Origin: Betaproteobacteria bacterium HGW-Betaproteobacteria-18
Lineage (GTDB): Bacteria > Pseudomonadota > Gammaproteobacteria > Burkholderiales > Burkholderiaceae_C
Reading direction: 5' to 3'
Length of the DNA: 52,508 nucleotides
NCBI GenBank assembly: GCA_002842265.1
Contig: PHCO01000002.1
Location: forward strand, 1-52,508
The notes below the pieces were generated by a model. It searched no databases. It was given only the letters and a program-made list of their open reading frames with translations, and was not told the origin of the DNA. A program made the translations under genes and the position numbers. Of the stretch, positions 30,408 to 52,508 are shown one piece after another. The number at the start of each line of letters is the position of its first letter. Positions within the stretch are counted from its first letter, which is position 1.

Positions 30408-30484
30408 GGAGTGGTAGTTCAGTTGGTTAGAATACCGGCCTGTCACGCCGGGGGTCGCGGGTTCGAGTCCCGTCCGCTCCGCCA
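30408..30484 (+). tRNA. tRNA-Asp (anticodon GTC)
   Basis: 77 nt including CCA. Acceptor GGAGTGG/CCGCTCC (one T-G), anticodon stem CCGGC/GCCGG around CTGTCAC with anticodon GTC, T loop GGGTTCGAGTCCC. It marks the last core feature; island-type genes begin right after it. Confidence 0.98.
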
Positions 30485-30999: not shown

Positions 31000-31524
31000 A
31001 TGGCTTCAGCACCCACAAAACCCGGCAACGGTCAACTACCACCCGGGTTTGTTTCACCTTTCAAACGTGTTCCCATGCTGGGCACCCACGACGACTTATT
31101 GGCATGCGCCGCCACTTTGTGCGGCAAGACGATTGAAGAGGTCAAGAAAATGGCCGTCACCCTTGGCTTGCGTGCCAACGGGCCGTTTTATATGGACGAG
31201 AAACTGTTTCGCAAGATTCTGTTCAACCTCTCGAATCTTGCTGTCAGCGACTACAAGGACTTCAAAAGTGTCGCCGCACTACCCGACGTTTGCGTGCTCT
31301 GCGTGGACTACGACGCTGATGAAACCTGCCGCCATGTGGTCTTTCATCACGTCCGAGGCACACCGGAAATTCCGGCATTTTCGTATGTGATCGACGTTGG
31401 CAACTGGATCGAATCCAAGCAGCAAATCACAACAGACTTCAGTCACCTACGGATTGATGTGAAGGTGGCCTGGTACTTGGAAATCACGCAACGCCAAAAT
31501 CCGGCGGGCACCAAGGGCAAGTAA
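31000..31524 (+). CDS. Hypothetical protein, possible papain-like (C39-type) cysteine peptidase fold
   Basis: 174 residues from ATG 31000, chosen because GGAG at 30989-30992 precedes it. No known family was recognised with confidence. The order of motifs suggests a papain-like fold: DDLLACAATLCGKTIEEV (Cys at the start of a helix, as in xxCxxAxxxGK), later CRHVVFHHVRG (His on a strand), then FSYVIDVGNW (Asp/Asn on the next strand). The canonical CG pair before the nucleophile is missing, so the assignment is tentative. It is first of three small genes on the same strand, with 116 nt to the next. Confidence 0.6.
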   Translation: MASAPTKPGNGQLPPGFVSPFKRVPMLGTHDDLLACAATLCGKTIEEVKKMAVTLGLRANGPFYMDEKLFRKILFNLSNLAVSDYKDFKSVAALPDVCVLCVDYDADETCRHVVFHHVRGTPEIPAFSYVIDVGNWIESKQQITTDFSHLRIDVKVAWYLEITQRQNPAGTKGK

Positions 31525-33603: not shown

Positions 33604-34329
33604 ATGGACAGGCGGATATTGTTGAAGGGTCTTGGCGCTGGCGCAGTCAGTATTGCGCACGCTCCTTCGGCATGGTCAGGATCAGTTTTGATGCCATCAA
33701 AATCACCAGTGTCCGAAACGCCGCCCCGTCCTCGGACGACAAAAATCATCGGCGTTGGCGGCGCAGGCTGCAACTTCATTCAGTCATTCAGGTTAAGCAT
33801 TGACCAGCACAAACTCACAAATGTGACGGAACTGGTGTGCGTTGACCTTGGAATGCAGGGCCTGTTGTCGGTCGAAAACCTCTACGAAACGGCGGCTGGC
33901 AGTCTGTTATTGAAGATGATTTCACTTGCACCCTACGGTGCTGGTGGTCGGGTGAACGCTGCACGTGCCGCCGCACTGTGCAATATCGACGTATTAAATG
34001 CCACCGTAAACGGTGCAGGCACGGTCATACTGGCCGCTGGCCTTGGTGGCGGTACTGGCAGTGGTGTTTTGCCGATCATCGCAAGGGCGGCGCGGAACGC
34101 TGGTGCAGTGACTGTTGCGGCTGTCGTGATGCCCTTTGACTTTGAAGGCCCTCGCAATGGAACAGCCGTCGCCGCTTTGACCTACCTTGCGAGGGAGGTT
34201 GACTTGGTGATGCCGTTTTCGAATCAGGACCTTGGCGACTCTATGGGCGATGGCGCTCAACTTGCCGACACTTACGCCCAGCAAGACCGACGCATCATGG
34301 CTTGGCTACAGCGGATCAGTCTGGGATGA
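33604..34329 (+). CDS. FtsZ/tubulin-like GTP-binding protein with Tat signal
   Basis: 241 residues from ATG 33604. The N-terminus is a twin-arginine signal (DRRILLKGLGAGAVSIAHA). From residue 46 the sequence follows the nucleotide-binding half of FtsZ: GVGGAGCN at 50-57 (T1), VCVDLGMQGL at 78-87 (T2), GLGGGTGSGVLPIIARAARN at 146-165 (T4 tubulin signature) and TVAAVVMPFDFEG at 170-182 (as FtsZ TVAVVTKPFxFEG), then DLVMPFSNQDL where FtsZ has DSLITIPNDKL. The protein ends shortly after, so the C-terminal domain with the catalytic T7 loop and the FtsA/ZipA-binding tail are absent. GTP binding is likely; hydrolysis or polymerisation as in FtsZ is doubtful. An exported tubulin relative is highly unusual. 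Confidence 0.85.
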   Translation: MDRRILLKGLGAGAVSIAHAPSAWSGSVLMPSKSPVSETPPRPRTTKIIGVGGAGCNFIQSFRLSIDQHKLTNVTELVCVDLGMQGLLSVENLYETAAGSLLLKMISLAPYGAGGRVNAARAAALCNIDVLNATVNGAGTVILAAGLGGGTGSGVLPIIARAARNAGAVTVAAVVMPFDFEGPRNGTAVAALTYLAREVDLVMPFSNQDLGDSMGDGAQLADTYAQQDRRIMAWLQRISLG

Positions 34330-34574: not shown

Positions 34575-34871
34575 ATGGAAATTGAGTTCGCAGATTCAAG
34601 TTACGACCGCCTAGAGGTAGATGCAAGCTACACGGGTAAATTTTCAGCGTCCGTAGTTAAAGCCTACCGCAAAAGAATTCAACTGATTCGCGGAGCGGAG
34701 GATGAGCGCGACTTTTATGCACTGAAATCACTTCACTTTGAGAAGCTTTCGGGCGACCGAGATGGTCAATTTTCGATGCGTCTCAATGATCAGTGGCGAT
34801 TAATACTTGAGTTGAAGAGGGAGTCCAAAGGCAAACTGGTAGTGATCATAAGTATTACGGACTATCACTAA
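34575..34871 (+). CDS. higB: HigB/RelE-type toxin
   Basis: 98 residues, RelE-superfamily mRNA interferase of the HigB (plasmid killer) type: MEIEFADSSYDRLEVD, FSASVVKAYRKRIQLIRGAEDERDFYALKSLHFEKLSGDRDGQ and MRLNDQWRLILEL are typical. The strand with NDQWRL and the C-terminal ITDYH match the family's active-site edge. No ribosome site precedes the ATG, and the predicted transcription start coincides with it. It is followed 14 nt later by the antitoxin gene. Confidence 0.92.
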   Translation: MEIEFADSSYDRLEVDASYTGKFSASVVKAYRKRIQLIRGAEDERDFYALKSLHFEKLSGDRDGQFSMRLNDQWRLILELKRESKGKLVVIISITDYH

Positions 34872-34885
34872 AAATGGAGAATGGC

Positions 34886-36016
34886 ATGAGTAAACGTACA
34901 CCGGCGGAGGTGTTTCCGCCTGGGGAATTCTTAAAAGATGAGTTGGAAAGCCGTAACTGGACACAGGTCGAGTTCGCGGAGATTATTGGTAAAGATGCTC
35001 GACTAGTAAACGAAGTGATAAGTGGAAAACGGGCGATCACTCCAGAGACTGCGATTGTCTTTTCTGAGGCCCTTGGTACAAGCCCTGATCTTTGGCTGCG
35101 TCTGGAAGCTCAGTATCAGTTGTCGAAAGTTAGGACCGGGGATAGTGCAGTCGCCAAAAAAGCAGCGTTGCATTCAAATTTCCCTGTTCGGGAAATGATC
35201 AAACGCGGATGGATAGAAGGTTCAAAAAACATTGAAGTTTTGCAGGCTCAGATTTGTGCATTCTTCAATATTAAAACCGTTGCTGAGCAGCCTAGTCTTG
35301 CATATGCCGCGAAATCTGGCTGTGTTGGTTTAACGCCAATTGCTCAGTCTGCTTGGTACTTCCGGGCACGAAACATTGCTCAGAGCGCTCCAGCCGCCAA
35401 ATTTAATGCGGCCAAGTTGGATGAACTGGTCGTTGCCTTAAAGGAGAAGATTGCTCATCCTGAAGCGACTCAAGATGCTCCGGCAATTTTGGCAAATGCG
35501 GGAATTCGATTCGTTATCGTTGAAGCTTTGCCTGGATCAAAAATTGATGGCGCATGTTTTTGGTTGAACAAATCATCGCCTGTAGTCGCTATGTCCATGC
35601 GCTTTGATCGTATTGATAATTTCTGGCATACGCTGTTCCATGAAATCGACCATGTCGCGCACAGGGAGGGTATGGATGCGCCTATTTTGGATGTGGACAT
35701 CCAGAGTATTGAAGGAACACAAGCAAGTGAAATAGAGGTACGTGCGAATGAAGTTGCGGCCAGTCGATTAGTTGACCCCAGTGAGTTGGAAGGGTTTATT
35801 GCAAGGGTCAATCCGATTTTTTCTGACGATCAAATTCTTGGGTTTTCACGGCGAATCGGTTCACACCCTGGGTTGGTTGTCGGGCAACTTCAGAACCGAG
35901 GATTGATACCTTGGAGCTATCACAGGAAGCACTTGGTAAAAGTGCGCGAGATCGTCTTAGCCAATGCGCTTACAGACGGTTTCGGCAGGCGCGTACTTGA
36001 GCAGCAATATGTCTAA
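34886..36016 (+). CDS. HigA-type antitoxin fused to ImmA/IrrE-like metallopeptidase
   Basis: About 376 residues from ATG 34886 (GGAG 7 nt upstream; ATG 34874 also possible). Residues 1-95 form a HigA HTH: TPAEVFPPGEFLKDELESRN, then TQVEFAEIIGKDARLVNEVI (recognition helix) and TPETAIVFSEALGTSPDLWL. The C-terminal half has the zinc motif HTLFHEIDHVAHREG (HExxH near residue 252) and E-x-x-A-N-E-V-A-A-S-R-L (EVRANEVAASRL), the standard ImmA/IrrE third-ligand region. The fusion suggests an antitoxin-repressor that is cleaved, or that cleaves, on a signal. It is four times longer than a normal HigA. Confidence 0.9.
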   Translation: MSKRTPAEVFPPGEFLKDELESRNWTQVEFAEIIGKDARLVNEVISGKRAITPETAIVFSEALGTSPDLWLRLEAQYQLSKVRTGDSAVAKKAALHSNFPVREMIKRGWIEGSKNIEVLQAQICAFFNIKTVAEQPSLAYAAKSGCVGLTPIAQSAWYFRARNIAQSAPAAKFNAAKLDELVVALKEKIAHPEATQDAPAILANAGIRFVIVEALPGSKIDGACFWLNKSSPVVAMSMRFDRIDNFWHTLFHEIDHVAHREGMDAPILDVDIQSIEGTQASEIEVRANEVAASRLVDPSELEGFIARVNPIFSDDQILGFSRRIGSHPGLVVGQLQNRGLIPWSYHRKHLVKVREIVLANALTDGFGRRVLEQQYV

Positions 36017-36877: not shown

Positions 36878-39841
36878 GTGAATTACAGCCAGCACCAACT
36901 CGCCTTTTTCGCGCACCAACTCACACGTAGGGCCGCCTCCAGTTCCATGGAGGCCATGGCGGGGGCGTTGCTGGATGCACAAGTTGACTTGAACCCGCAT
37001 CAGATTGATGCGGCCATGTTCGCCACTAGCAACCCACTATCCAAGGGCGTAATACTGGCTGACGAAGTTGGCTTGGGCAAAACCATTGAGGCGGGTTTGC
37101 TGATCGCCCAGCGGTGGGCGGAGCGAAAGCGACGCATTTTGGTCATAACCCCCGCCAATCTTCGTAAGCAGTGGCATCAAGAGTTGGCGGATAAGTTTGG
37201 TTTGACTGCGACCATTCTCGAAGCCAAATCGTTCCGGCAGGCGGTGAAAGATGGCGCAACCAACCCGCTCAACACGTCGGGCATCATCATCTGTTCGTAC
37301 CAGTTCGCCGCTCGCAGGGCTGCTGAAGTCAAAGCCGTGGCCTGGGACTTGGTCGTTATTGACGAAGCGCACCGACTGCGCAACGTCTACAAGACGGACA
37401 ACAAAACCGCACGCATCCTGCGCGATGCGCTGGCAACCCCGCTCAAGGTGCTTCTGACTGCAACGCCACTCCAGAACTCCCTGCTTGAGCTGTATGGTCT
37501 GGTTAGCTTTGTAGACGATCGTGTGTTTGGTGACTTGGACAGCTTCAAGACCCAGTTTGCATCTGTCAAAAATGCCGAAAGCTTTGATGCGCTGAAAAAT
37601 CGGATTGCCCCCATTTGCAAGCGCACCTTGCGGCGGCAGGTGGAAGCCTACGTCAAGTACACCAAGCGCATACCGCTGTTGCGCGAGTTCATTCCGGGTG
37701 CCAATGAAATCGAGTTGTACAACCAGGTCTCCGCATACCTTGAGCGGGAGACGCTGTTTGCCCTTCCCAATAGTCAGCGGCAGCTCATTACTCTGGTACT
37801 GAGGAAATTGTTGGCATCCAGCACGTTTGCGATTGCTGGGGCACTTGAGACCCTGACAAATCGCCTCAAAAAAACGCTGGCAGAAAAGGCATCCACGCTT
37901 GAAGACGGTGAATCTCTGGTCGATGAACTTGATCAGGATTTTGAGTCACTGGATGAGCTTGCCGATGAGATCGAATCGCCTCCAGTAGACGTGGCCAAAG
38001 CCCATACCCAGGCGCAGGTTCAAGCCATTCGGTGCGAAATAGCTGATTTGGAGGCATTCCGCAAACTTGCCGTTTCCATCACCGAGAACTCTAAAGGCAC
38101 GGCGCTACTACAGGCATTGCGGGTTGCCTTCGCCAAGCTGGAAGAACTGGGTGCTGCCAAAAAAGCCATTGTCTTCACTGAGTCACGCCGTACACAAGAG
38201 TATTTGCTGACTCTGTTGGCAAAAACACCCTATGGTGCTGGTGTCGTCCTCTTCAATGGCAGCAACACTGACGCGGCATCTAAGCAGATTTACACCGACT
38301 GGATTACGCGCCACGCTGGCACTGACCGCGTAACCGGATCACGATCTGCTGACACCCGCGCCGCTCTTGTCGAGCACTTCCGTGAATTTAATGGCTCGGA
38401 CGGTGCCATCATGATCGCTACTGAAGCGGGCGCAGAAGGCATTAACCTCCAGTTCTGTTCCATGGTCATCAACTACGACTTGCCCTGGAACCCGCAGCGC
38501 GTTGAACAACGCATCGGGCGCTGTCACCGCTATGGTCAGAAGCATGACGTGGTGGTGGTCAACTTCTTGAATCGTGAAAACGAGGCTGACAAGCGCGTCT
38601 ACGAGCTGCTTGCACAGAAGTTCAAACTCTTCGATGGTGTCTTTGGTGCCAGTGATGAAGTCTTGGGTGCTGTCGAATCGGGTGTCGATTTCGAGCGGCG
38701 AATCGCTGAGATATACCAGACGTGCAGGCAACCAGCCGCCATCCATGCCGCATTTGAACAACTCCAGCTCGATATGGCCGGTGAAATCAGCGATGCCATG
38801 TTGAATGCCCGCAAGTCACTGTTGGAAAACTTTGACGAGGACGTACAGGAGCGTTTGCGCCTGCGTAACCAAGATGCAAAAGCGTCGCTGGGCAAGTTGG
38901 AACGCCTTCTGATGCGCTTCACACGCGGTGCGCTACAGGGCCACGCTGATTTTGCTGATGACGATACGAACTTTGTTCTAAATTCCATTCCACCTGCACT
39001 GCAAAGCGGGGTTGAGCCGGGAAGTGGAAGCGATATTGCCCAAGCTGTATCCGCTGTAAGCACTTCCCAGTTGGGTCGATACGAGTTACCGCGCCGCTCC
39101 GAAAACGCCCACATCTACAGGCTTGGGCATCCCCTGGCGCAAGCACTATTGCAACATGCCAAGCAACAACCGCTGGGAACTTCCAAGATCGTTCTCGACT
39201 ATGCTGCTTATGGAGTCAAGGTTTCCGTCCTTGAATCAATGAGGCAACGCAGCGGTTGGCTGGAGGTGCAGTCACTTCAAATTCGGTCCCTGGGTGCTAT
39301 CGAAGAACACTTGCTGGTTGCCGCAGTGGATGAAATTGGGCAAGCCTATGACCAGGATGTGACCGAGCGACTGCTGAACCTGCCATGCGGTAAGTCATCT
39401 CGCCTTGATGGGCAACAGTCCATCGGATTCTCCCCAGCGGATCGAAAACCTCTGGATGCTGAAATCACACGTCAAAAAAACGTCATCATTTCTGACCTTG
39501 AGTCACGCAACATGGGGGCATTCACCCAAGAGGCGGAAAAACTTGACGATTGGGCTGACGACCTCAAGGTAGGTTTGGAGCGCGAAATCAAGGAACTCGA
39601 TAGGCGCATCAGAGAGGCACGTACCAAGAGCAAAGGCGCAGCGACCCTGGCTGAAAAACTGGCGGCTCAGAAGGAGCAGCGTGACCTCGAATGCCAGCGT
39701 GACAAGAAACGGCGCGAATTATTTGATCGTCAGGACGAGATTCAACGTAAACGCGATGGTCTAATTGACGAGTTGGAACGTCAGTTGAAACAAGAAATAA
39801 CTGTCAGCACTGTACTGGCATGTGAATGGGAGATTATTTAG
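36878..39841 (+). CDS. SNF2-type DEAD/DEAH-box helicase/translocase
   Basis: 987 residues from GTG 36878 (NYSQHQLAFFAHQL, an opening I associate with this helicase type). Motif I ADEVGLGKT at 61-69, DEAH at 162-165 and TATPLQNS form lobe one. FNGSNTDAASKQIYTDW, ATEAGAEGINLQF and RVEQRIGRCHRYGQ (motif VI, near 540) form lobe two; this is the RapA/SNF2 class. From about 860 to 970 there is a long charged coiled coil (DAEITRQKNVIISDLESRN onward). It probably moves along DNA with ATP and supports the restriction machinery encoded downstream. The stop codon overlaps the next gene. Confidence 0.93.
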   Translation: MNYSQHQLAFFAHQLTRRAASSSMEAMAGALLDAQVDLNPHQIDAAMFATSNPLSKGVILADEVGLGKTIEAGLLIAQRWAERKRRILVITPANLRKQWHQELADKFGLTATILEAKSFRQAVKDGATNPLNTSGIIICSYQFAARRAAEVKAVAWDLVVIDEAHRLRNVYKTDNKTARILRDALATPLKVLLTATPLQNSLLELYGLVSFVDDRVFGDLDSFKTQFASVKNAESFDALKNRIAPICKRTLRRQVEAYVKYTKRIPLLREFIPGANEIELYNQVSAYLERETLFALPNSQRQLITLVLRKLLASSTFAIAGALETLTNRLKKTLAEKASTLEDGESLVDELDQDFESLDELADEIESPPVDVAKAHTQAQVQAIRCEIADLEAFRKLAVSITENSKGTALLQALRVAFAKLEELGAAKKAIVFTESRRTQEYLLTLLAKTPYGAGVVLFNGSNTDAASKQIYTDWITRHAGTDRVTGSRSADTRAALVEHFREFNGSDGAIMIATEAGAEGINLQFCSMVINYDLPWNPQRVEQRIGRCHRYGQKHDVVVVNFLNRENEADKRVYELLAQKFKLFDGVFGASDEVLGAVESGVDFERRIAEIYQTCRQPAAIHAAFEQLQLDMAGEISDAMLNARKSLLENFDEDVQERLRLRNQDAKASLGKLERLLMRFTRGALQGHADFADDDTNFVLNSIPPALQSGVEPGSGSDIAQAVSAVSTSQLGRYELPRRSENAHIYRLGHPLAQALLQHAKQQPLGTSKIVLDYAAYGVKVSVLESMRQRSGWLEVQSLQIRSLGAIEEHLLVAAVDEIGQAYDQDVTERLLNLPCGKSSRLDGQQSIGFSPADRKPLDAEITRQKNVIISDLESRNMGAFTQEAEKLDDWADDLKVGLEREIKELDRRIREARTKSKGAATLAEKLAAQKEQRDLECQRDKKRRELFDRQDEIQRKRDGLIDELERQLKQEITVSTVLACEWEII

Positions 39842-41634
39842 TGGCAACATTGGCAGAAAACTTCGATGCAATATTGAAGACAAAGCTGAAGGCGGAGTTT
39901 GTACCTAGATTACCGCCTTTATTGAATAAAAATGCAAAGCCGGAAGAGCAAGATAAAAAGCAGCTTTCCCGTGCTTTCGCAGGATTTGTATTGCATAAGC
40001 ATCTTGACCTTAGCGTTGTCGAGGCTTGTGCGTCCGTAATTGACGATTTTGATGATTGCGGTGTTGATGCCATTGCCTGTGTGGATCAAGTGCTCTACTT
40101 TGTACAGGTTAAATTGAAGAGTAAAGCGTTTGACCAAGAAGATGCGCTCAAATTTCGCAACGGAATTGCATCGTTATTGAAGGGCAAGTTCGATCAATTC
40201 AATACCAATGTGCAAAAAAGAGTTCCTGAACTTGAAGCTGCTTTTAACAATTGTGATGCGATCAAACTGATAGTTGGCTATACAGGTGACTGCATAACTG
40301 AACATGCAAAACAAGTTTTCATTGCTCTTTATGATGAAGTAATTGACGAAGAGCCACGACTTGACAAAACGGTTATCGAATTTGAAGCGACTCAAATTAC
40401 CGAAACACTGCTTGAGGAAAAAGCTTTAGGGACTGTCGATGTAACCATTCCTTTTTCCAAGCTTCAACTAGTGGCGGAACCAAGGCCTACCTATTTTGGC
40501 ATTGTTAAGTTGCATGATCTAGTCGTACTACATCAGGATAAAAGCAAAGCTCTTTACGAGCGCAATATTCGATATTTTTTGGGTACGAAAAGCTCCAATG
40601 TAAATCAGTCGATTCAGGAAACCCTTCGCTCGAATAAGAAGGCGTTTTTTTATCTGAATAACGGCGTTACTGCGCTTGCAGATTCAATTGAAAAAAAGGG
40701 AACCGCAGTCAGCCAAAAACTCAAACTCAAGGGTTTATCCGTAATCAATGGCGCGCAAACTATTTCGTCTGCTGCTGACTACGTAAAGAGGTTTCCTGAT
40801 GACGACATTAATGAAGCACGGGTATTGCTCACAATAATTCAAGCTGGCTCTGATAGTGATTTTGGACGTTCTGTTACCAAGGCACGCAATCACCAAAATC
40901 CAGTAACGGCCGGTAATTTTGCAGCGCTCGATTCTGCTCAAGAAAATCTTCGTCGTGAGCTTGACTATCTAGGATACTCCTATCACTACCGACCGGAGGC
41001 CCTGCCTATTGGAGCGGAAAAAACTCCTCAAGTTATTACTTTTGAGTTGGCCATGCGATCACTGGCAATGTTCGGAACAGATTCCCATTTTCCATTCTGG
41101 CTAAAGAACGAGCCCATTCGCTTTCAGCAAATAGATTCGCCCGAATACGCATCCTTGTTCAGTCCTGCCCCCATGGGCTCAATACTTGTTAACAAGGTGA
41201 ATTGTTATCGGTTCATCAGGGATGTTCTCGCAGCTAACGATGCACCTGGCGGAGAAGAAGGTGAGCGCCTTTTTTATAGACATGGTGTTTATCTGATTGC
41301 AGCAGTTTTGGCAAAGAGGCTTATCGGTTTGGTGAATTCACCAACTCTGGTGAAACATGAAGTTCTCAATCAGTTGGTTAGTGCCCCATTGGATGAGTGT
41401 CGTCATCTGTGCTGGGAGTGCGCCAAAGGCTATGTTGGTACTAGAAATGGCGTTCTGGCCTTCTTTCGGAACCAAGGCAACACAGTTTCTCTTTTGGAGC
41501 GTTGCATGTCTACCGTTTACAAACTAGGCGATAGCCCGGAACTTGCCGCAGTCAAGGCTCAAAGTTTTGTGGGTGAGAAGTACCCGAAAGAACGCGTCTT
41601 CCGGTACTTGGTAGCCAATTGTCCCAAGATTTAA
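39841..41634 (+). CDS. AIPR (abortive phage resistance) protein with N-terminal nuclease motif
   Basis: About 597 residues. GTG 39841 is preferred because GGGAG (39828-39832) is well spaced and it shares one base with the helicase stop; ATG 39826 in the same frame is the alternative. AIPR motifs: YERNIRYFLGTKSSNVNQSI, FFYLNNGVTALAD and LSVINGAQTISSA, as in AbiR/AIPR proteins. Near the N-terminus GVDAIACVDQ ... LYFVQVKLKSK (D81, Q94, K96 counted from the ATG) fits a PD-(D/E)xK nuclease. The gene looks clearly more AT-rich than the helicase, suggesting separate ancestry. Cytoplasmic; probably cleaves DNA or RNA during phage attack. Confidence 0.9.
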   Translation: MATLAENFDAILKTKLKAEFVPRLPPLLNKNAKPEEQDKKQLSRAFAGFVLHKHLDLSVVEACASVIDDFDDCGVDAIACVDQVLYFVQVKLKSKAFDQEDALKFRNGIASLLKGKFDQFNTNVQKRVPELEAAFNNCDAIKLIVGYTGDCITEHAKQVFIALYDEVIDEEPRLDKTVIEFEATQITETLLEEKALGTVDVTIPFSKLQLVAEPRPTYFGIVKLHDLVVLHQDKSKALYERNIRYFLGTKSSNVNQSIQETLRSNKKAFFYLNNGVTALADSIEKKGTAVSQKLKLKGLSVINGAQTISSAADYVKRFPDDDINEARVLLTIIQAGSDSDFGRSVTKARNHQNPVTAGNFAALDSAQENLRRELDYLGYSYHYRPEALPIGAEKTPQVITFELAMRSLAMFGTDSHFPFWLKNEPIRFQQIDSPEYASLFSPAPMGSILVNKVNCYRFIRDVLAANDAPGGEEGERLFYRHGVYLIAAVLAKRLIGLVNSPTLVKHEVLNQLVSAPLDECRHLCWECAKGYVGTRNGVLAFFRNQGNTVSLLERCMSTVYKLGDSPELAAVKAQSFVGEKYPKERVFRYLVANCPKI

Positions 41635-41645
41635 GGACTCAATTA

Positions 41646-43349
41646 ATGAGACAAAAACTAGAACTTACATGGATTGGCAAGGATTCTCGCCCTAAGCTGG
41701 AGCCACGCATATTGCTTGAAGACCCGAGCAAAAGCTACCATGCAAACCATCGTGTTAGAGAATCAGACCTTTTCGATAACAGGTTGATATTTGGCGATAA
41801 CTTACTGGCGTTGAAAGCCCTTGAACAGGAGTTCGCTGGAAAGGTGAAGTGCGTCTTTATTGATCCACCCTACAACACAGGAAGTGCATTTGAGCACTAT
41901 GAAGATGGTTTAGAACACTCAATCTGGCTAGGTTTAATTCGTGATCGATTAGAAATTATTAGGCGATTGCTATCACCTGATGGATCTTTATGGATAGCCA
42001 TTGACGATAACGAAGGGCACTACTTAAAAGTGCTATGTGACGAAATTTTTGGCCGGAGTGCTTTTGTTTCCTCAATGGTTTGGGAAAACTTCTATGGACG
42101 AAGCAACGCTGCGGCAATATCACCAGCCCACAACTATGTCTTGCTCTATTCGCCAATGGGGCAAGATTGGAAAAAAGTCCGAAATCTTCTGCCGCGTGGA
42201 GATGAAAGTTCCAGCAAATACAAAAATCCAGATAACGACACTCGCGGACCGTGGCGGCTAGGTCCTATTTTTGCGGCAGGGGAGCGTCATGAAGGACTCA
42301 TGTACACAATTAGTACTCCGTCAGGTAGGAAGGTTAGTCCGCCGAAGGGAAGCCATTGGCGAATGATTGAAGCGCAGTTTTGGAAAATGGTAGATGAAGG
42401 CCGAATTTTGTTTGGCGAAAAAGGTGACAACAATCCCGCTGTTAAGCTCTTTCTGAGCGAAGTACAAGAGGGTCTGGTACCTAGAACGTGGTGGTCACAT
42501 TCGGAAGTCGGACATTCCCAAGAGGCAAAGAGAGAGATTCAGGCTCTGTTCCCTGGTGATACACCGTTTGACACCCCCAAACCTGAAAGATTGTTGAATC
42601 AAGTCATCACAATTGCTACAAACCCTGGTGACATTGTTCTTGATTCTTTCGCTGGTTCGGGGACGACTGGTGCTGTGGCGCACAAGATGGGAAGACGGTG
42701 GATCATGATTGAACTTGGCGAACACTGCCACTCTTACATCATTCCACGTATGAAAAAGGTTGTTGATGGCAAGGATTTGGGTGGCGTGACGGACGTTACA
42801 GGCTGGCAAGGTGGAGGTGGATTCCGCTACTTTTCACTGGCACCAAGTCTCTTGGAAAAAGACCGCTGGGGAAATTGGATCGTCAACAAGGAATACAACA
42901 GTGGGATGCTTGCCGCTGCTATATGCAAGTTGGAAGGTTTTACCTATGCACCGTCCGACACCTATTACTGGCAGCACGGCCACAGCACCGAGACAGACTT
43001 CATTTACGTGACCACACAAACCCTGAATGCCGATCAATTACAGGCATTGAGTGATGACGTGGCTGACTCAAGTAGTCTGCTGGTGTGTTGTAGCGCCTTT
43101 AAGGGTGATGCTAACCGTTACCCCAACCTAACTCTCAAGAAAATTCCCAAGATGGTATTGACCAAGTGTGAATGGGGGCATGACGACTACAGTTTGAATG
43201 TGGAAAACTTACCCATGCAACATCAGTCTGCCGTTGAACCAGTGCCAACAAAACGCGTAGCCTCCGCGAAGGCAGTACAGACGGCACAAGGTGGTTTGTT
43301 TGATGCAACTGCCACGGCTACACCTGCCAATGTGGAGGTGAAACCATGA
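41646..43349 (+). CDS. Site-specific adenine DNA methyltransferase (type III Mod-like)
   Basis: 567 residues from ATG 41646, 11 nt after the AIPR stop, with AAGGA ahead. Beta-class order: catalytic DPPYNTGSAF at about 73-82, then FAGSGTTG (SAM binding) near 336. DPPY indicates N6-adenine (or N4-cytosine) methylation; Mod-like segments DGLEHSIWLGLIRDRLEIIR and DGSLWIAIDDNE support N6-adenine. The long insert between motifs would hold target recognition. The C-terminus ends in a QGGLFDATATA-type tail. The stop overlaps the Res start by 4 nt. It would protect host DNA from the nucleases of the operon. Confidence 0.94.
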   Translation: MRQKLELTWIGKDSRPKLEPRILLEDPSKSYHANHRVRESDLFDNRLIFGDNLLALKALEQEFAGKVKCVFIDPPYNTGSAFEHYEDGLEHSIWLGLIRDRLEIIRRLLSPDGSLWIAIDDNEGHYLKVLCDEIFGRSAFVSSMVWENFYGRSNAAAISPAHNYVLLYSPMGQDWKKVRNLLPRGDESSSKYKNPDNDTRGPWRLGPIFAAGERHEGLMYTISTPSGRKVSPPKGSHWRMIEAQFWKMVDEGRILFGEKGDNNPAVKLFLSEVQEGLVPRTWWSHSEVGHSQEAKREIQALFPGDTPFDTPKPERLLNQVITIATNPGDIVLDSFAGSGTTGAVAHKMGRRWIMIELGEHCHSYIIPRMKKVVDGKDLGGVTDVTGWQGGGGFRYFSLAPSLLEKDRWGNWIVNKEYNSGMLAAAICKLEGFTYAPSDTYYWQHGHSTETDFIYVTTQTLNADQLQALSDDVADSSSLLVCCSAFKGDANRYPNLTLKKIPKMVLTKCEWGHDDYSLNVENLPMQHQSAVEPVPTKRVASAKAVQTAQGGLFDATATATPANVEVKP

Positions 43350-46198
43350 GCCAGAATCCAATTCAAAAAGACAGCGGGCGCGAAAAAGTTGCGCGTTCAA
43401 TTGCTGGCCGACTGAGCCTGCGCCAGCCACAAACTGACAGCCTTGACATTTTGCACAACGCGCTGGAGGCCGTGCCCGCCTTGCGTGATTCTCACGCTCG
43501 TTCCCCAGACAAACTCAAGGCAATGCAGACGGCGCTGGCAAGTCAGTTTCCGACCTTGACTGACTTTGAACGTGAGTTTCCGTCAATGTGCTTTGCGCTT
43601 GCTACGGGCGTAGGCAAGACGCGCTTGATGGGCGCATTCATCAGCTACCTGTACGCCGCATATGGGTACAAGCACTTCTTTGTTCTCGCCCCAAATTTGG
43701 TGATTTACGAAAAGCTGATTCAGGACTTCACCCCTAATACTCCAAAGTACGTGTTTAAGGGGATCGCAGAATTTGCAACCGCCGTGCCGGAAGTGATTAC
43801 GGGTGAAACCTACGAGCAAAGAGGCGACTTGGTTTCACAAGCGATTGATGCGCCCGTTCAGATCAATATCTTCAACATTGCAAAGATCAATTCTGAAGTT
43901 CGTGGCGGCAAAGCACCAAGGATCAAACGCCTGTCGGAATATCTTGGGCAAAGCTACTTTGATTACCTTGCAAGCTTGCCCGACTTGGTTCTCATCATGG
44001 ACGAGTCGCACCGTTACCGCGCCGGTGCTGGTATTCGTGCCCTGAATGAACTCAAACCCTTGCTTGGCCTAGAGCTGACGGCAACTCCATTCACGGAAGG
44101 CACTGCGGGAAAGACTGTCCCATTCAAGAACGTGGTGATGGACTACCCGTTAGCACGCGCCATTGAAGACGGTTTTGTCAAGGAACCTGCCGTTGTTACC
44201 CAGCAGAACTTTAACCCCGCCGACCATAGCGCAGAGCAGATTGAGGTTATCAAGATCAAAGACGGCATTCGCGTGCATGAGGAAACAAAGGTTCATTTGC
44301 TAACCTACGCTGCGCAGACCGGTCAAAAGCCAGTCAAGCCGTTTGTGCTTGTAATTGCACGCGACACAACCCACGCTGCGCAACTCCTGGCTCAGATCGA
44401 AAGCGATAGCTTCTTCAGCGGCAATTACAAAGGCAAGGTGATCCAGGTCGATTCAAGCCGCACCGGCGCGGAGGAAGAGGAAATGATTCGCCGCCTGCTT
44501 GCGGTGGAAAGCTACGATGAACTGACAGAGATTGTGATTCACGTCAACATGCTCAAAGAAGGCTGGGACGTGACCAACCTCTACACCATCGTGCCCCTGC
44601 GAGCTGCCAATGCCCGAACGCTGATCGAGCAGTCTATTGGGCGTGGCTTGCGTTTGCCCTATGGTCGAAAGACTGGTGTTGAGGTTGTTGACCGTCTGAA
44701 CATCATCGCCCACGACAAGTTTCAGGAAGTTATTGCGGAAGCGAACAAGGGTGATTCACCTATACGGCTGAAGCAACTCAAGCTTGATCCGACTGACTCG
44801 GATGGCAACAGGTTGACCAGCTACACGGTGCCCTCAATGATGGCTGTGGTCCTTGGTTTGGCGCAAACTCAGGGTGTGGGCGGCAACGGTCAATCCGTTG
44901 CACCGGGTATTTCTGCCGGGTCATCAAGTGGAAGCGGCACTATCGCCAGTTCAAATCTACCATCGGGGACATTGCAAATTTCACCCGTATTTCACACAGG
45001 TGAAGACCGACAGATTGCTATTGCAGCAATGGAGGTCATTGCTGAAGTTGGTCGTTATCGTGATGGTGCCTCTATTGCACCCACCAGCGCATCATTATCA
45101 GCGCCCAGCGTTCAACAGCACATTGCAGAATTGGTGCAGCAACGTTTAGTTCCAATGCAGCCAGGCACACAAGGTGAGTTGCTGGAGTCGAAGTTCAATA
45201 ACTCTGCAGCCGTGGCCGAAGTGGTCAGGCAAGCAGTGAGTGTCTTTGTTGAACACACGATTGATATTCCTCGCATTTCTGTGGTGCCAGTTGGCCCGGT
45301 CAAAAGCGGATACGCATCGTTCACCTTGGATATTTCCCGATTGAACTATCAACCGTTAGCCAATACGCTTGAGTCCCATGGCTTGCAGTCCAACAGGGTT
45401 CTGACTTATGGTGATGCGGCTGTGGTGGAGGAATCTCGGTTTGAGGATTACATCGTCCGTGAGTTAATTAACTTTGACGACGTTTCCTACGACGACCATG
45501 CGGATTTCATCTACCAATTGGCAGATCAGGCAGTCAATCACTTCAAGTCTTACCTGACTGAAGAGGATGCGCTCCACAATGTCCTGGCAAATTACGCAAA
45601 ACCCATCGCGGAAATCATTCACACGCAGATGGCAAAGCACTACGTGGAGGAATCCGCTGGCTCTGACGTGGTGGTGAGCCAAGGTTTTGTGCCGCTGAAG
45701 CCATGCGCGTTCACCGCCAAGGACGAATTGAAGCCCTTGCACTGGGCACCCGACGACAAGCGAACCATCGGCCAGTACCTGTACAGCGGGTTTGCGCGGT
45801 GCTCTTACCCATACCAGAAGTTCCATTCCGACACCGAGCGCATTCTTGCGACCGTACTGGAGCGGCAAGCCAAACGTTGGTTCAGACCAGCAGCCGGTCA
45901 GTTCAACATCTACTATCGGTCTGGCGCGTTTCAGCCCGAGTACATCCCTGACTTTGTGGCGGCGCTGGATGATGTGATTCTGATGATCGAGACCAAAAAA
46001 GCGCAAGAGGTGACAGCCTCGCTGGAATCAGAAACTGATGTGAGAGCCAAGGCAGATCAGGCGGCACTCTGGTGCAAAAACGCGACTGACTATTCCAAAA
46101 AGGTTGGGGGCAAGCCTTGGCGTTACTTGCTGATCCCACATGATGCAGTTGCAGCCAACGTGACGCTGGATAACTTGATCTCAAGGTTTGGTGTCTGA
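43346..46198 (+). CDS. Type III restriction enzyme Res subunit (helicase-nuclease)
   Basis: 950 residues. Helicase motif I FALATGVGKTRLMGAF at 83-98, DESH (motif II) at 219-222, LTATPF (motif III), NMLKEGWDVTNLY and IEQSIGRGLRLPYG (motif VI). The C-terminal nuclease shows PDF (868-870) and IETKK with E882 and K884, the PD-(D/E)xK layout of type III Res enzymes. A Gly/Ser-rich linker (about 511-540) separates the halves. With the methyltransferase it forms a complete Mod-Res pair that would travel along DNA and cut unmethylated targets. Start codon coupled to the methyltransferase stop (ATGA). Confidence 0.95.
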   Translation: MSQNPIQKDSGREKVARSIAGRLSLRQPQTDSLDILHNALEAVPALRDSHARSPDKLKAMQTALASQFPTLTDFEREFPSMCFALATGVGKTRLMGAFISYLYAAYGYKHFFVLAPNLVIYEKLIQDFTPNTPKYVFKGIAEFATAVPEVITGETYEQRGDLVSQAIDAPVQINIFNIAKINSEVRGGKAPRIKRLSEYLGQSYFDYLASLPDLVLIMDESHRYRAGAGIRALNELKPLLGLELTATPFTEGTAGKTVPFKNVVMDYPLARAIEDGFVKEPAVVTQQNFNPADHSAEQIEVIKIKDGIRVHEETKVHLLTYAAQTGQKPVKPFVLVIARDTTHAAQLLAQIESDSFFSGNYKGKVIQVDSSRTGAEEEEMIRRLLAVESYDELTEIVIHVNMLKEGWDVTNLYTIVPLRAANARTLIEQSIGRGLRLPYGRKTGVEVVDRLNIIAHDKFQEVIAEANKGDSPIRLKQLKLDPTDSDGNRLTSYTVPSMMAVVLGLAQTQGVGGNGQSVAPGISAGSSSGSGTIASSNLPSGTLQISPVFHTGEDRQIAIAAMEVIAEVGRYRDGASIAPTSASLSAPSVQQHIAELVQQRLVPMQPGTQGELLESKFNNSAAVAEVVRQAVSVFVEHTIDIPRISVVPVGPVKSGYASFTLDISRLNYQPLANTLESHGLQSNRVLTYGDAAVVEESRFEDYIVRELINFDDVSYDDHADFIYQLADQAVNHFKSYLTEEDALHNVLANYAKPIAEIIHTQMAKHYVEESAGSDVVVSQGFVPLKPCAFTAKDELKPLHWAPDDKRTIGQYLYSGFARCSYPYQKFHSDTERILATVLERQAKRWFRPAAGQFNIYYRSGAFQPEYIPDFVAALDDVILMIETKKAQEVTASLESETDVRAKADQAALWCKNATDYSKKVGGKPWRYLLIPHDAVAANVTLDNLISRFGV

Positions 46199-46223
46199 GT
46201 TAATCAAAAATGGGGAAGAAATA

Positions 46224-47324
46224 ATGCCGCTATATCGCGTCGCTAAAGACAAGCTTGAAGCCGTCAAGCAGACCTCATTCATTGAAGAGAAATTCTTCGA
46301 GCGTAAAGATTTGCAGCGCCTGTTGAGAGCTGACATTTCTGTGATCGGAGATGATCTGATGGTCATCTCTGAAGAGTTTGGCGAATGGGACGAAAGCAAT
46401 CGACGCATCGACCTGCTGTGCTTGGACAAGCAGGCCCGTTTGGTAGTCGTTGAAATTAAGCGTACCGACGACGGCGGACATATGGAGTTGCAGGCGATAC
46501 GTTACGCGGCAATGGTTTCCAGCATGACCCTCGATCAGGCCATTGCGGCGTATGCAAAAAGCCTTGGTGATCAAGATGCGGAGGTTACGGCGCGGCGCGA
46601 GATTTTGGAGTTCTTGGAACTTGACACCACCGAAGAGGCCGAGCTTACCGACGAGGTTCGCATCATTCTGGTATCAGCTGACTTTTCAACCGAAATCACC
46701 ACCTCTGTCATATGGCTCAACCGTCATGGGATTGACATTACGTGCGTGCGTTTGAAGCCCTATCGGATGAATGATGAGTTGCTGGTCGATGTAGCGCAGA
46801 TTATTCCGCTTCCAGAAGCTGCCGACTATGAAATCAAGGTTCGAGCACAAGCCCAGGAAATTAAGAAGGTCCGCAGCGCACGACAGGAAATATTCCGGCG
46901 CTTCTGGTCACAGTTCATTGAACGGTCAAAACCTAAAACTAGTCTGTACGCGAATCGCAGCACTTCATCTGACCATTGGATGTCAGCCGGTATCGGGCGC
47001 GGCGGATTTTCACTGAATGCGTCCGTCACTGAAGACAGAGCACGCATCGAGTGCTACATCAGTATGGGCAAAGATAGTGATGCCCGGAACAAAGCGGCGT
47101 ATGGTGCACTTTACGAAAAAAAGGCGGAAATTGAACAAGCGTTTGGTGGTCCCCTTGATTGGCAAGAACTTCCAACACGTATCGGGTGCCGAATCTGCGT
47201 TGACATTGATGGTGGCTGGAAAACCCCGGAAGCCGATTGGCCTGCGCTCCAAGACCAAATGCTTGTGCAGATGATGAGACTGGAATCGGCATTGAAGGGC
47301 CCGATCCAAGCACTAAAGATGTGA
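46224..47324 (+). CDS. DUF4268 protein with NucS/DUF91-like nuclease domain
   Basis: 366 residues from ATG 46224 (GGGGAAGAA upstream; the frame is open back to 46188). The N-terminal domain has NRRIDLLCLDKQARLVVVEIKR (D63, E77, K79) and a following QAIRYAAMVSSM helix, a PD-(D/E)xK pattern as in NucS/DUF91 endonucleases. The C-terminal part (ARQEIFRRFWSQFIERSK onward, with GIGRGGFSLNASVTEDRARI) is the DUF4268 domain, often found with restriction genes. It lies 25 nt after the Res stop in the same operon, so it is a second nuclease candidate or a regulator of the Mod-Res pair. Confidence 0.88.
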   Translation: MPLYRVAKDKLEAVKQTSFIEEKFFERKDLQRLLRADISVIGDDLMVISEEFGEWDESNRRIDLLCLDKQARLVVVEIKRTDDGGHMELQAIRYAAMVSSMTLDQAIAAYAKSLGDQDAEVTARREILEFLELDTTEEAELTDEVRIILVSADFSTEITTSVIWLNRHGIDITCVRLKPYRMNDELLVDVAQIIPLPEAADYEIKVRAQAQEIKKVRSARQEIFRRFWSQFIERSKPKTSLYANRSTSSDHWMSAGIGRGGFSLNASVTEDRARIECYISMGKDSDARNKAAYGALYEKKAEIEQAFGGPLDWQELPTRIGCRICVDIDGGWKTPEADWPALQDQMLVQMMRLESALKGPIQALKM

Positions 47325-48281: not shown

Positions 48282-50066
48282 ATGGCTTTTCTTAGAAACG
48301 ACCCGTTGACCCAGCTTGCGTTTTCAATTGTTGAAAATAAAGGTGTATTCGCAGTTTTGATTGGTTCCGGCTTATCACGTTCGGCAAATATTCCGACTGG
48401 CTGGGAAATCACTCTCGATCTGGTGCGGCGTGTCGCTTTGTCGCAGGGTATCGAAGAGCAACCCGATTGGGCCAAGTGGTTTCGCGATACGACGGGAGAG
48501 GAACCAAATTATTCTGTTTTACTGGAAAGCTTAGCAACATCGCCAGAAGAGCGGCGTTCAATACTTCACAGTTATATCGAGCCAGATCAGTCAGATCGAG
48601 AAGAGGGTCGAAAAATCCCAACTCCGGCACATCAAGCGATAGCCTCTTTGGTTCGCTCTGGGCATATACGTGTGATCATCACCACCAATTTCGACCGATT
48701 GATGGAAAATGCCCTTCGGGAATATGGGGTTGAGCCTACCGTTGTGTCGTCTGTCGACGCGCTTAAGGGTGCAGAGCCGTTTTCACACAGCCAGTGCTAT
48801 TTGCTGAAACTTCATGGCGATTACAAAGATGCTCGTATTCTGAACACGGATTCAGAACTGAACGCCTATCCAAAAGAGTACGACAGCCTACTCGATAGAC
48901 TTTTTGATGAACACGGGCTGATCATCTGTGGCTGGTCTGGTGAATGGGATCATGCCCTACGGGCTGCGTTTCTACGTGCACCAAATCGCCGTTATTCTGT
49001 TTTTTGGACGACACGTGATTCCTTGGGGGTGGGTGCTCAGGAACTTGCGACCCATCGGCGCGCCAAGGAGATACAAATCACAGGAGCTGATCAGTTTTTT
49101 TCTGTGTTGCAGCAAAAGGTTGAAACTTTGGAGCAGAGTCGTCGGCAGAACCCATTGAGTATTGAGTTATTGATAAATAGCGCCAAACGTTACATCGCAA
49201 AAGCAGAGTATCGGGTCCAACTGGATGAACTCTTTTCGCAATCGACGGAGCAGCTACTTGAAAAAATCGACGCTTCCAATCTGGCCTGCCAAGTTCAATG
49301 GAGCCAGGATGAATTCCGGTCGCGGATTCAATATTACGAATCGGTAACTGAACCGTTGGCTCGTATGCTCGGTGTCCTTGGTCGATGGGGGGATGGACGC
49401 GAATTTGCAATGGTTTTGGACATCATCCGAACGTTGTATGGCAATGCCGAAAAGGTGGCAAATGGGCTGACGGTTTGGTTGAATATGCGGTCCTACCCCG
49501 CTGTCTTAGCCTTTACTGCCTACGGATTGGGATTAACACGTGCGCAGCGTTGGCACGATATGCATGGCCTGTTATCTTCAACGCTTTTTCGTGAACACCG
49601 CGAACCGCAAAAAGTTGTTTCGACACTTTTCCTCTGGTCATGGAAAGGTACAGAAAATGAAGTATGGAAAAATATTGAAGGATTTAGTGACAGGAAAACA
49701 CCACTCAGTGATCACCTTCTGAATGTAATGACAGAATGGAAAACGAGCTTCGTGGGTGTTGAGCCAAATTTTGAACTAATGTTCGATAGATTTGAAACCC
49801 TCGCATCACTTGTCAGTTTTGAGGACAACGATGAAGCCAGCATAGATGAATCTATTGCGACGAATTCAGGTGAAATTCTTGCTTGGATGCCTGTTGGCCG
49901 GGTCGGGTGGCACACCGCGTCTTACAAAGCTTTAGTACAGGAGTTGGAAAGTGAGACCACAATTGTTTCTTTGCTCAAAGCTGGTTTTGCAAAGAACAGT
50001 CGCCGATTCCTCCAGTTATTTATTGCTAATCTTGGGCGATACAACAAAAGAATGTTTTGGCGGTAA
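48282..50066 (+). CDS. SIR2-domain defence protein, probable NADase
   Basis: 594 residues. The N-terminal 270 or so residues are a SIR2 Rossmann fold: LIGSGLSRSANIPTGWEI (NAD loop, 27-44), ITTNFDRLMENAL near 135, KLHGDYKD near 178 (catalytic His), and IICGWSGEWDHALRAAF. The rest is helical without known motifs and would sense the trigger or oligomerise. SIR2 proteins of this kind in defence loci deplete NAD+ and stop the infected cell. It is separated from the Mrr gene by 70 nt of AT-rich sequence, more than any other gap in the operon, so it may have its own promoter. Confidence 0.9.
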   Translation: MAFLRNDPLTQLAFSIVENKGVFAVLIGSGLSRSANIPTGWEITLDLVRRVALSQGIEEQPDWAKWFRDTTGEEPNYSVLLESLATSPEERRSILHSYIEPDQSDREEGRKIPTPAHQAIASLVRSGHIRVIITTNFDRLMENALREYGVEPTVVSSVDALKGAEPFSHSQCYLLKLHGDYKDARILNTDSELNAYPKEYDSLLDRLFDEHGLIICGWSGEWDHALRAAFLRAPNRRYSVFWTTRDSLGVGAQELATHRRAKEIQITGADQFFSVLQQKVETLEQSRRQNPLSIELLINSAKRYIAKAEYRVQLDELFSQSTEQLLEKIDASNLACQVQWSQDEFRSRIQYYESVTEPLARMLGVLGRWGDGREFAMVLDIIRTLYGNAEKVANGLTVWLNMRSYPAVLAFTAYGLGLTRAQRWHDMHGLLSSTLFREHREPQKVVSTLFLWSWKGTENEVWKNIEGFSDRKTPLSDHLLNVMTEWKTSFVGVEPNFELMFDRFETLASLVSFEDNDEASIDESIATNSGEILAWMPVGRVGWHTASYKALVQELESETTIVSLLKAGFAKNSRRFLQLFIANLGRYNKRMFWR

Positions 50067-51059: not shown

Positions 51060-51791
51060 TCACTTTGCATTCGGATCTCGCAGCGTGGCACCCTTGAGAT
51101 CAATCCTGTGGCTGCTATGCACGACACGATCGAGAATGGCATCGGCCAGCGTTGGATCGTCCAAATAGGTATGCCACGCTTTGACCGGTAATTGACTGGT
51201 GATCAAAGTCGAACGCGTGCCCACCCGGTCATCGAGCACCTCCAGCAAATCGTTCCTCTCGGGCGCGCCCATTGGAGAAATTGCAAAGTCATCAATGAGC
51301 AGCAGATCCAGTTTGGCCAGTTGACTCATGCGACGGGCAAAGCTGCCATCACCATGGGCCACATGCAATTCATCAAAGAGCCGCCCAGCGCGGGTGTACA
51401 GCACTGAGAAGCCCGACCTGGCCGCCTGATGTGCCAAGGCACAGCCAAGCCAGGTCTTGCCACAACCGGTGGCACCGGTGATCAGCAGATTTTGTCCATT
51501 GCGAATCCAGTCGCCCGCTGCCAAGGCAGTCACCAGGGAGCGATCCAGTGCGCGACTGGCACGCCAATTGATATCTTCGATACAGGCCGAGCTCACCTTG
51601 AGTTTGGCGGCTTTAAGCAGACGCTCGACCCGGCGCTCATCACGCCAGGCTACCTCACGCTGCACCAACAGGGAGAAGCGTTCATCAAAGCCCAGGGCAC
51701 TGGCAGCGGTGCTGGTGGCTTGCTCTTCAATGGCGCGCACCATGCCGTCCAGGCGCATGCCGCGTAATTGGGTCAGGGTATGTTCGTTCAT
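51060..51791 (-). CDS. istB: IS21 transposition helper ATPase
   Basis: About 243 residues from ATG 51791 ([17 protein letters not shown]; a TTG 6 nt upstream is also open). IstB is the AAA+ partner of IstA: the N-terminal [16 protein letters not shown], Walker [16 protein letters not shown], Walker [15 protein letters not shown] and the sensor segment [15 protein letters not shown] are all intact. Intact length suggests the element could be active. Confidence 0.96.
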
Positions 51792-51832
51792 GCTCAATCC
51801 GATCTTGTTGTGCGTGTTGGGTCGGTGTGTGT

Positions 51833-52508
51833 TCAGTGGAAATAATCTGAGCCACGGATGTTGTCGTGCAGGGGCAGTGAGCCCGGTGTCATGGTGGGCA
51901 GGTTTTGCTGACGATCCAAGCCTGTTTTGAGGATGGAGGCCACGCTGCGGTACGTCAGGGATCGAATGGCCACCGCTCTGGTACAGGCCGCCTCCAGGCG
52001 CACGGGCGTGTATTCACGGGCCAAACGTTGCAAGCCCAAACAAGCCCGGTAGCCCTGCTCAGGATGTGCGCGGTGGTCAAGCTGCCAGGTCACCACCGCT
52101 GCGGTGCTGACCCCAATACGCAGGCCCCAGTCGATGAGCTTTTGCGGGGTCCACTCCAGGTGTGCCCGGTGGGAATCGGGCATGTGCTCAGGCATGGTGG
52201 TGTGGGCACCGCGCTGGTGGCTGACAGCGTGGCAAGCCACGCGCTGATTGAAGGAATAACACTCCAGCAAGGTGTCACTCGCACGCAGTTCTACCGTGGT
52301 GCGCACCAGGGTGTGGGGCACGCTGTAGTAATGGCCCTCAAATTCCACGTGGTAGTCGACGTTGACCTTGGCAGACTTCCAGCGGAATAACTCAAAGCGT
52401 TTGGGCGGCAGTGGCCGCAGGGCTGGAAGATCAAGTTGCTCAAAAGCACTGCGTCTGTTGCCAGGCAGCTTTTTGAAAGCACGCTGGTTCAAATCGTTCA
52501 GGAGCAAG
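51833..52508 (-). CDS. istA: IS21 transposase, C-terminal part (5' end outside window)
   Basis: 225 or so residues to the stop at 51833, frame open to the window edge. It covers the end of the IstA catalytic region and the Mu-type C-terminal domain: [40 protein letters not shown] and [20 protein letters not shown]. The DDE residues lie outside the window. istB starts 42 nt downstream, the normal IS21 arrangement. Confidence 0.95.

Follow-up and report, generated by a model that had tools for sequence, protein, structure and literature searches.

What would the GTPase domain of FtsZ be doing behind an export signal? FtsZ and tubulin are cytosolic polymer-formers driven by GTP, and the window (the whole stretch of DNA that was analyzed, 52,508 nucleotides) contains a gene whose product appears to join the first half of such a protein to a twin-arginine (Tat) signal. 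We favor, with moderate confidence, the reading that the gene belongs to a mobile island and encodes an exported FtsZ-type GTPase domain, which would work as a non-polymerizing periplasmic binding or scaffold protein. The gene is laid out as follows.

33604 to 34329, plus strand: Tat-signal, T7-less FtsZ-like protein of 241 aa with an ATG start (ORF translation, MDRRILLKGLGAGAVSIAHAPSAWSG...)
33604 to 33678, plus strand: putative Tat signal, residues 1 to 25, MDRRILLKGLGAGAVSIAHAPSAWS, with RRILLK and then an uncharged h-region (conserved in nine of nine members; curated HMMs below cut-off)
33736 to 34311, plus strand: FtsZ/tubulin N-terminal GTPase domain, residues 45 to 236, ending inside H7 (profile matches)
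33751 to 33774, plus strand: T1 loop GVGGAGCN, residues 50 to 57 (alignment)
34039 to 34065, plus strand: T4 loop GLGGGTGSG, residues 146 to 154 (alignment)
34132 to 34149, plus strand: T5 segment PFDFEG, residues 177 to 182 (alignment)
34219 to 34224, plus strand: T6 Ser-Asn, with the Asn invariant across the nine members (alignment)

All three motifs that the initial annotation had read in the domain (T1, T4, and PFDFEG) are thus present, and the Asn of T6 presumably has a role in base contact. By its match to PF00091 (Tubulin; residues 47 to 212, E value 3.9e-24, 86.4 bits against a cut-off of 33) and by its predicted fold, the protein is a GTPase domain of the FtsZ/tubulin superfamily. The TIGR00065 ftsZ profile aligns with residues 45 to 238 over positions 19 to 202 of 353 only, and its equivalog cut-off is missed (103.9 versus 295.2 bits). 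A phmmer search of the PDB returned 51 distinct sequences (E values up to 1), each of them annotated as FtsZ or an FtsZ homolog, and the host genome codes for a separate, ordinary FtsZ with 37% identity to the window protein over residues 45 to 226. The initial annotation had named a predicted fold other than that of the tubulin/FtsZ GTPase as a result that would refute it. AF2 gave a pTM of 0.64 and a pLDDT of 57 with four sequences, and 0.71 and 69.3 with six, where most of the domain was above 70 and the signal and linker (residues 26 to 44) below 50; for both models the top 50 PDB matches shown by Foldseek were FtsZ entries or FtsZ complexes (FtsZ E value, 2e-13). The predicted fold is therefore that of the FtsZ GTPase domain, in a model of moderate quality.

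We identified nine distinct members of this family, all of them with an M-x-RR-x-x-L start and without the C-terminal domain. Close homologs align from residue 1 with 81% (L004), 70% (L005), and 75% (L006) identity; L007 and L008 are full-length ordinary FtsZ. Among 89 genomes of the genus, seven contain a member, namely, the host's own, G860 (the L004 contig), G857 (the L006 contig), G832 (L088), G788 (L089), G839 (L090), and G790 (L091). The remaining genus matches, of about 101 to 116 bits and in open frames of 356 to 473 aa, resemble ordinary FtsZ, and those with a fetched locus were inspected for a Tat-like start. The family search (399 genomes) found the host's own gene and one from another genus with 39% identity (L009, the same gene as in L092), so that seven members come from the genus, one from another genus, and one more from the close-homolog search. 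In samples of the order (399 genomes), phylum (398), and class (369), which overlap and for which only the best candidates per genome were scored, the window's own gene is the sole one among the matches listed whose alignment starts at residue 1; three matches starting at residues 3 to 7 are ordinary FtsZ read through upstream, and a further one starts at residue 13.

Carriage of the truncated form by viruses or plasmids was set aside. None was found in viral contigs, nor in plasmids with the window protein as the query. The L089 protein as the query matched 88 plasmid and 18 phage records; the two inspected (H1 and H21) are full-length FtsZ, and the rest were judged from the matches listed, with 68 plasmid records outside these. 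The L089 member lies on a 4.7-Mb contig of a two-contig genome and so is no assembly scrap.

The end point of the protein was located with an HMM of 394 positions made from 72 ordinary FtsZ proteins (340 to 700 aa), in which the consensus T7, NVDFAD, falls at position 209. The match of the window protein stops at position 189, short of T7, as the initial annotation had claimed, and those of the nine members stop at positions 185 to 197. All nine stop in or just past H7, and the T7 loop with its catalytic Asp, the C-terminal domain, and the tail peptide are missing in every one of them. A frame-shifted or lost downstream half was set aside, since an unfiltered hmmsearch (E values up to 10) of six frames at the nine loci found no C-terminal FtsZ remnant.

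Is this a gene or the debris of one? A truncated paralog in the course of being lost would share the truncation seen in nine of nine members and the altered T4 of five of nine, and the dN/dS of the window's clade (0.38 to 0.49) is not very low. Decay is nevertheless very improbable in our view, as the frame is open in all nine members with a nearly identical end point, no remnant of the lost half is left, the signal is conserved, and dN/dS is well below 1, reaching 0.26 to 0.42 among L088, L089, and L091 (all values are from close pairs, silent sites being saturated in the distant ones). In a quick tree, with SH-aLRT as its only support value, the nine members also form one group (SH-aLRT 99) that excludes 30 ordinary FtsZ domains; long branches flagged by the program (L092, L090, L096, L007, and others) make individual placements unsure. 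Conservation and purifying selection, both read from the sequences, argue strongly that the signal and the half-FtsZ behind it are a selected unit.

The signal itself begins M-[DNK]-R-R-x-x-L in every member, with M1, R3, R4, L7, and G11 invariant, and the pattern M-x-RR-x-x-L-x-x-x-G is found in all nine, gap-free over residues 1 to 15. The initial annotation had placed a Tat motif ahead of the FtsZ motifs and had asked whether homologs without the RR segment exist; we found none among the nine. Among four divergent members, identity is 61% (55/90) over residues 1 to 15, falls to 15% (18/123) over residues 16 to 44, and is 41% (474/1146) in the domain, and a signal segment kept more strictly than the domain that follows is unlikely to be without function. 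The window protein shows the features of Tat substrates (RR motif, short positive n-region, weakly hydrophobic uncharged h-region). Across the members, the uncharged run after residue 8 has a length of 9 to 24 residues and the mean hydropathy of residues 9 to 20 is 0.29 to 1.61.

A Tat rule of our own is passed by eight of the nine members, L004 failing because of an Asp at residue 18. When the first 44 residues of the window protein were shuffled 200,000 times, 310 of the products passed the same rule, and of 205 ORFs at 14 loci that overlap in part, 13 passed (ten rows are Tat-FtsZ, and the other three represent two genes). Curated models are less generous: TIGR01409 matches six of nine members at E values up to 10 (best, 0.04; window protein, 9.0 bits against a cut-off of 16.7), PF10518 matches three of eight N termini (L088 left out; best, 22.0 bits against 22.7) and neither the window protein nor its clade, and no member tested reaches either cut-off. 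These low scores are what one would see if the RR segment were a membrane- or partner-binding extension of a cytosolic protein. We regard this as quite improbable, given that RR and an uncharged run occur in nine of nine members and that only one of 93 other FtsZ genes (some of them the same gene counted in two loci) passes the rule that eight of our nine pass; that one is the Thiodictyon plasmid FtsZ described below.

Cleavage was called with a simple, loose -3/-1 rule, under which each member has at least one formally allowed site. The sites look good in L088 and L089 (SSA, followed directly by the first strand of the domain) and in L090 (AQA), mediocre in the window's clade (AWS and TWS), and poor in L091; for the window protein, the possible site is AWS|GS, near residue 25. 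The start codon is an ATG at the same position in nine of nine members, preceded by AAAGGAG in L088 and L089, AAAGGA in L091, and AGGA in L005 and L006; the ribosome-binding site is weak (GGA) in the window and L004, and none is clear in L090 and L092. An internal start at M30 was rejected, as L005 lacks this Met and the position falls in the variable linker. TatC is found in the host genome, and Tat export of the signal plus half-FtsZ unit is likely, as far as it can be judged from sequence.

As for the domain that would be exported, T1 is kept across the members with small changes in L089 and L092, and all nine have the T5 PF and the T6 Asn, with the Glu of FEG missing in L090. T4 reads exactly GGGTGSG in four (the window, L088, L091, and L092) and is altered in five (GGATGSG in L004, GGDTGSA in L005, GGGTGAN in L006, GGGTGSS in L089, and GSGTGSG in L090), so some members may no longer bind a nucleotide. 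GTP hydrolysis by FtsZ uses the T7 Asp of the next subunit, and the protein alone should therefore not hydrolyze GTP. The combination of largely kept T1, T5, and T6 with an absent T7 fits, as would be expected, a nucleotide-binder without GTP hydrolysis of its own.

The surfaces that face other FtsZ subunits tell against another role that the initial annotation had proposed, that of a decoy for division proteins. In its membrane-held form, the signal would dock on the inner membrane or on TatBC with slow or no export, the T7-less domain would cap cytosolic FtsZ filaments and delay division, and export would be the off switch. The domain does retain the GTP-site side and lose the T7 side, like a one-sided filament cap, and the mediocre cleavage site in the window's clade would suit slow export. 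However, the interface loops have diverged: T2 has changed from NTDxQ to D-L-[GD] (DLG/DLD) in seven of nine members, and the protein is longer by five residues ahead of T3 and by another five or six between H1 and S2. It is only 37% identical to the host FtsZ domain, the export signal is the best conserved part of the protein, and an exported protein would have no access to cytosolic FtsZ. These points make the decoy less favored; it ranks second to the exported binding or scaffold protein, and we hold it to be unlikely.

The one other FtsZ gene that passes our Tat rule lies on plasmid pTs485 of "Candidatus Thiodictyon syntrophicum" (NZ_CP020372.1, L096:5001-6200; WP_100923325.1), which was reached with the L089 query. 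An ATG at locus position 5001, preceded by AAAGAGGAGACAGCGTG, opens a Tat-type N terminus, MKRRIFLQGLGAGSALCLGNAWG, like that of the family, while the annotated start is a TTG 36 codons further in, which cuts the signal off. Unlike the family, this full-length FtsZ retains the C-terminal domain together with T7 (GVDFGDV) and ends in a DIPAFLRR tail. In the quick tree it falls among ordinary FtsZ, away from the nine members, so the simplest reading, under the long-branch caution given above, is that a Tat-type signal may have arisen twice on FtsZ. The Thiodictyon protein as the query matched 100 plasmid records at 1e-20, and among the 60 listed its own match alone spans the signal. As gene calls can remove such signals, more may be hidden. 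In L096, genes for a Sir2 protein and for a toxin-antitoxin pair of Phd/VapC type lie nearby.

The window gene lies downstream of a tRNA-Ala/Glu/Asp cluster, four small genes (one on the opposite strand), and an alpha/beta hydrolase.

30408 to 30484, plus strand: tRNA-Asp, left side of the island
31000 to 31524, plus strand: 174-aa island protein with no Pfam match; look-alikes (by eye) in L004, L005, L006, L090, and L092
31641 to 32000, plus strand: 119-aa island protein; look-alikes (by eye) in L004 and L006
31960 to 32346, plus strand: 128-aa island protein; look-alikes (by eye) in L004, L005, L006, and L090
32357 to 32602, minus strand: HTH_3 regulator; look-alike (by eye) in L005
32742 to 33536, plus strand: alpha/beta hydrolase, 67 bp upstream of the FtsZ-like gene (Hydrolase_4, 25.2 bits, just below the cut-off of 27)

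L092 possibly has two look-alikes of the 174-aa protein, by eye. A tRNA-Asp repeat as the island end was set aside, as no second copy (any piece of at least 14 bases) occurs in the window outside the tRNA itself. By eye, the hydrolase carries a GTSRG motif and what appears to be a Sec signal, and it is likely on the same transcript as the FtsZ-like gene. It was rejected as a fixed partner, being present in 18 of the 89 genus genomes, of which only three also have a Tat-FtsZ, and is at best an occasional rather than an obligate one. No partner gene is constant across the members.

Downstream of the window gene are HigB- and HigA-like genes, a DrmD-like helicase, an AIPR protein, a type III restriction-modification (R-M) pair, and a SIR2 protein. 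The HigB-like toxin is paired with a long (380 aa) HigA-like antitoxin that carries a C-terminal HExxH-like HEIDH, by eye (34575 to 36016). The DrmD-like SNF2 helicase, the AIPR/AbiU-like protein, and the type III methyltransferase and restriction subunit (36878 to 46198) look like a single combined defense cluster, and PADLOC gives the candidates PDC-S11 (46188 to 47324) and PDC-S65, with a SIR2 domain (48282 to 50066, 751 bits). At 51060 to 52507, two minus-strand ORFs resemble, by eye, what we take to be an IS21-type transposase pair.

Could the protein be a defense or exclusion component, with the exported domain blocking phage or plasmid entry at the envelope? This would add a purpose to the exported binding or scaffold protein rather than compete with it. 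Besides the defense genes of the window island, there are DruE-like (L092), AbiJ/Abi_C (L093, on the same contig as L006), and IetA-like (L088) genes near other members, as well as HsdM (L005) and HsdR- and HsdM-like (L090) genes. Against this, PADLOC has no match to the FtsZ-like protein at an E value of 0.001, such islands commonly hold defense genes, the downstream neighbor scanned in L004 codes for a GGDEF/EAL protein, and the L089 neighborhood gives a weak PDC-M15A match only. The defense neighbors point to island carriage, not to function; an integrase is the adjoining gene in L092, and another is found about 2.6 kb before the gene in L093. We see a defense function as fairly unlikely, and a role at the envelope in the biology of the island, such as phage exclusion, is a guess from the neighborhood. 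L088, L089, and L091 share a different neighborhood, with a WYL regulator, a SHOCT protein, HAD_SAK_2, and unknown proteins (families scanned in L089, the others by eye), and L089 seems, by eye, to have a shortened version of the 805-aa IetA-like protein found in L088.

Compared with bacterial FtsZ (TIGR00065, PF00091), the family shares the N-terminal GTPase fold and the T1, T4, T5, and T6 motifs but adds a Tat signal, stops before T7, lacks the C-terminal domain, linker, and tail peptide, and has diverged in T2 and T3. FtsZ-superfamily paralogs beside the host FtsZ are described in the available passages of Makarova and Koonin (2010; PMC2875224) as FtsZl1, with T6-H7 elements that are not identifiable, a coiled coil, and a helical C-terminal domain, and FtsZl2, with about 300 C-terminal residues. 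The window protein is likewise a paralog beside the host FtsZ but, unlike those described there, ends inside H7 without a long C-terminal region. The same passages report no signal peptide on an FtsZ-like protein; they mention one crenarchaeal relative with N-terminal transmembrane helices, and a reviewer terms FtsZl1 "likely cytoplasmic." Literature searches of open-license PMC, which has no preprints and few subscription journals, showed no report of an exported FtsZ, as judged by title.

From these data we infer export, nucleotide occupancy, and a scaffold role as one sequence of events. The protein would fold in the cytoplasm, probably around a guanine nucleotide, which the protein alone would not hydrolyze, as T7 is missing; the twin-arginine signal would pass the folded protein to Tat; and the mature domain, on the periplasmic side of the inner membrane, would act as a non-polymerizing binding or scaffold protein. 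The use of an enzyme fold as a scaffold is modeled on SufI/FtsP of Escherichia coli, a Tat-exported protein at the septal ring that its authors, in the passages available, take for a scaffold (PMC2661564); its multicopper-oxidase fold is unrelated to the family, and the likeness is one of analogy only. More tentatively, FtsZ-type proteins may have been re-routed to the periplasm via Tat at least twice, as a full-length form on a plasmid and as a T7-less domain that spread with genomic islands, with the truncated form carrying a trapped guanine nucleotide and so placing a GTP-loaded tubulin fold outside the cytoplasm; we consider this possible but doubtful. If export is true, the family would be, to our knowledge, the first case of the FtsZ/tubulin fold acting outside the bacterial cytoplasm, and it would raise the question of how a GTP-fold is used where a GTP supply is absent.
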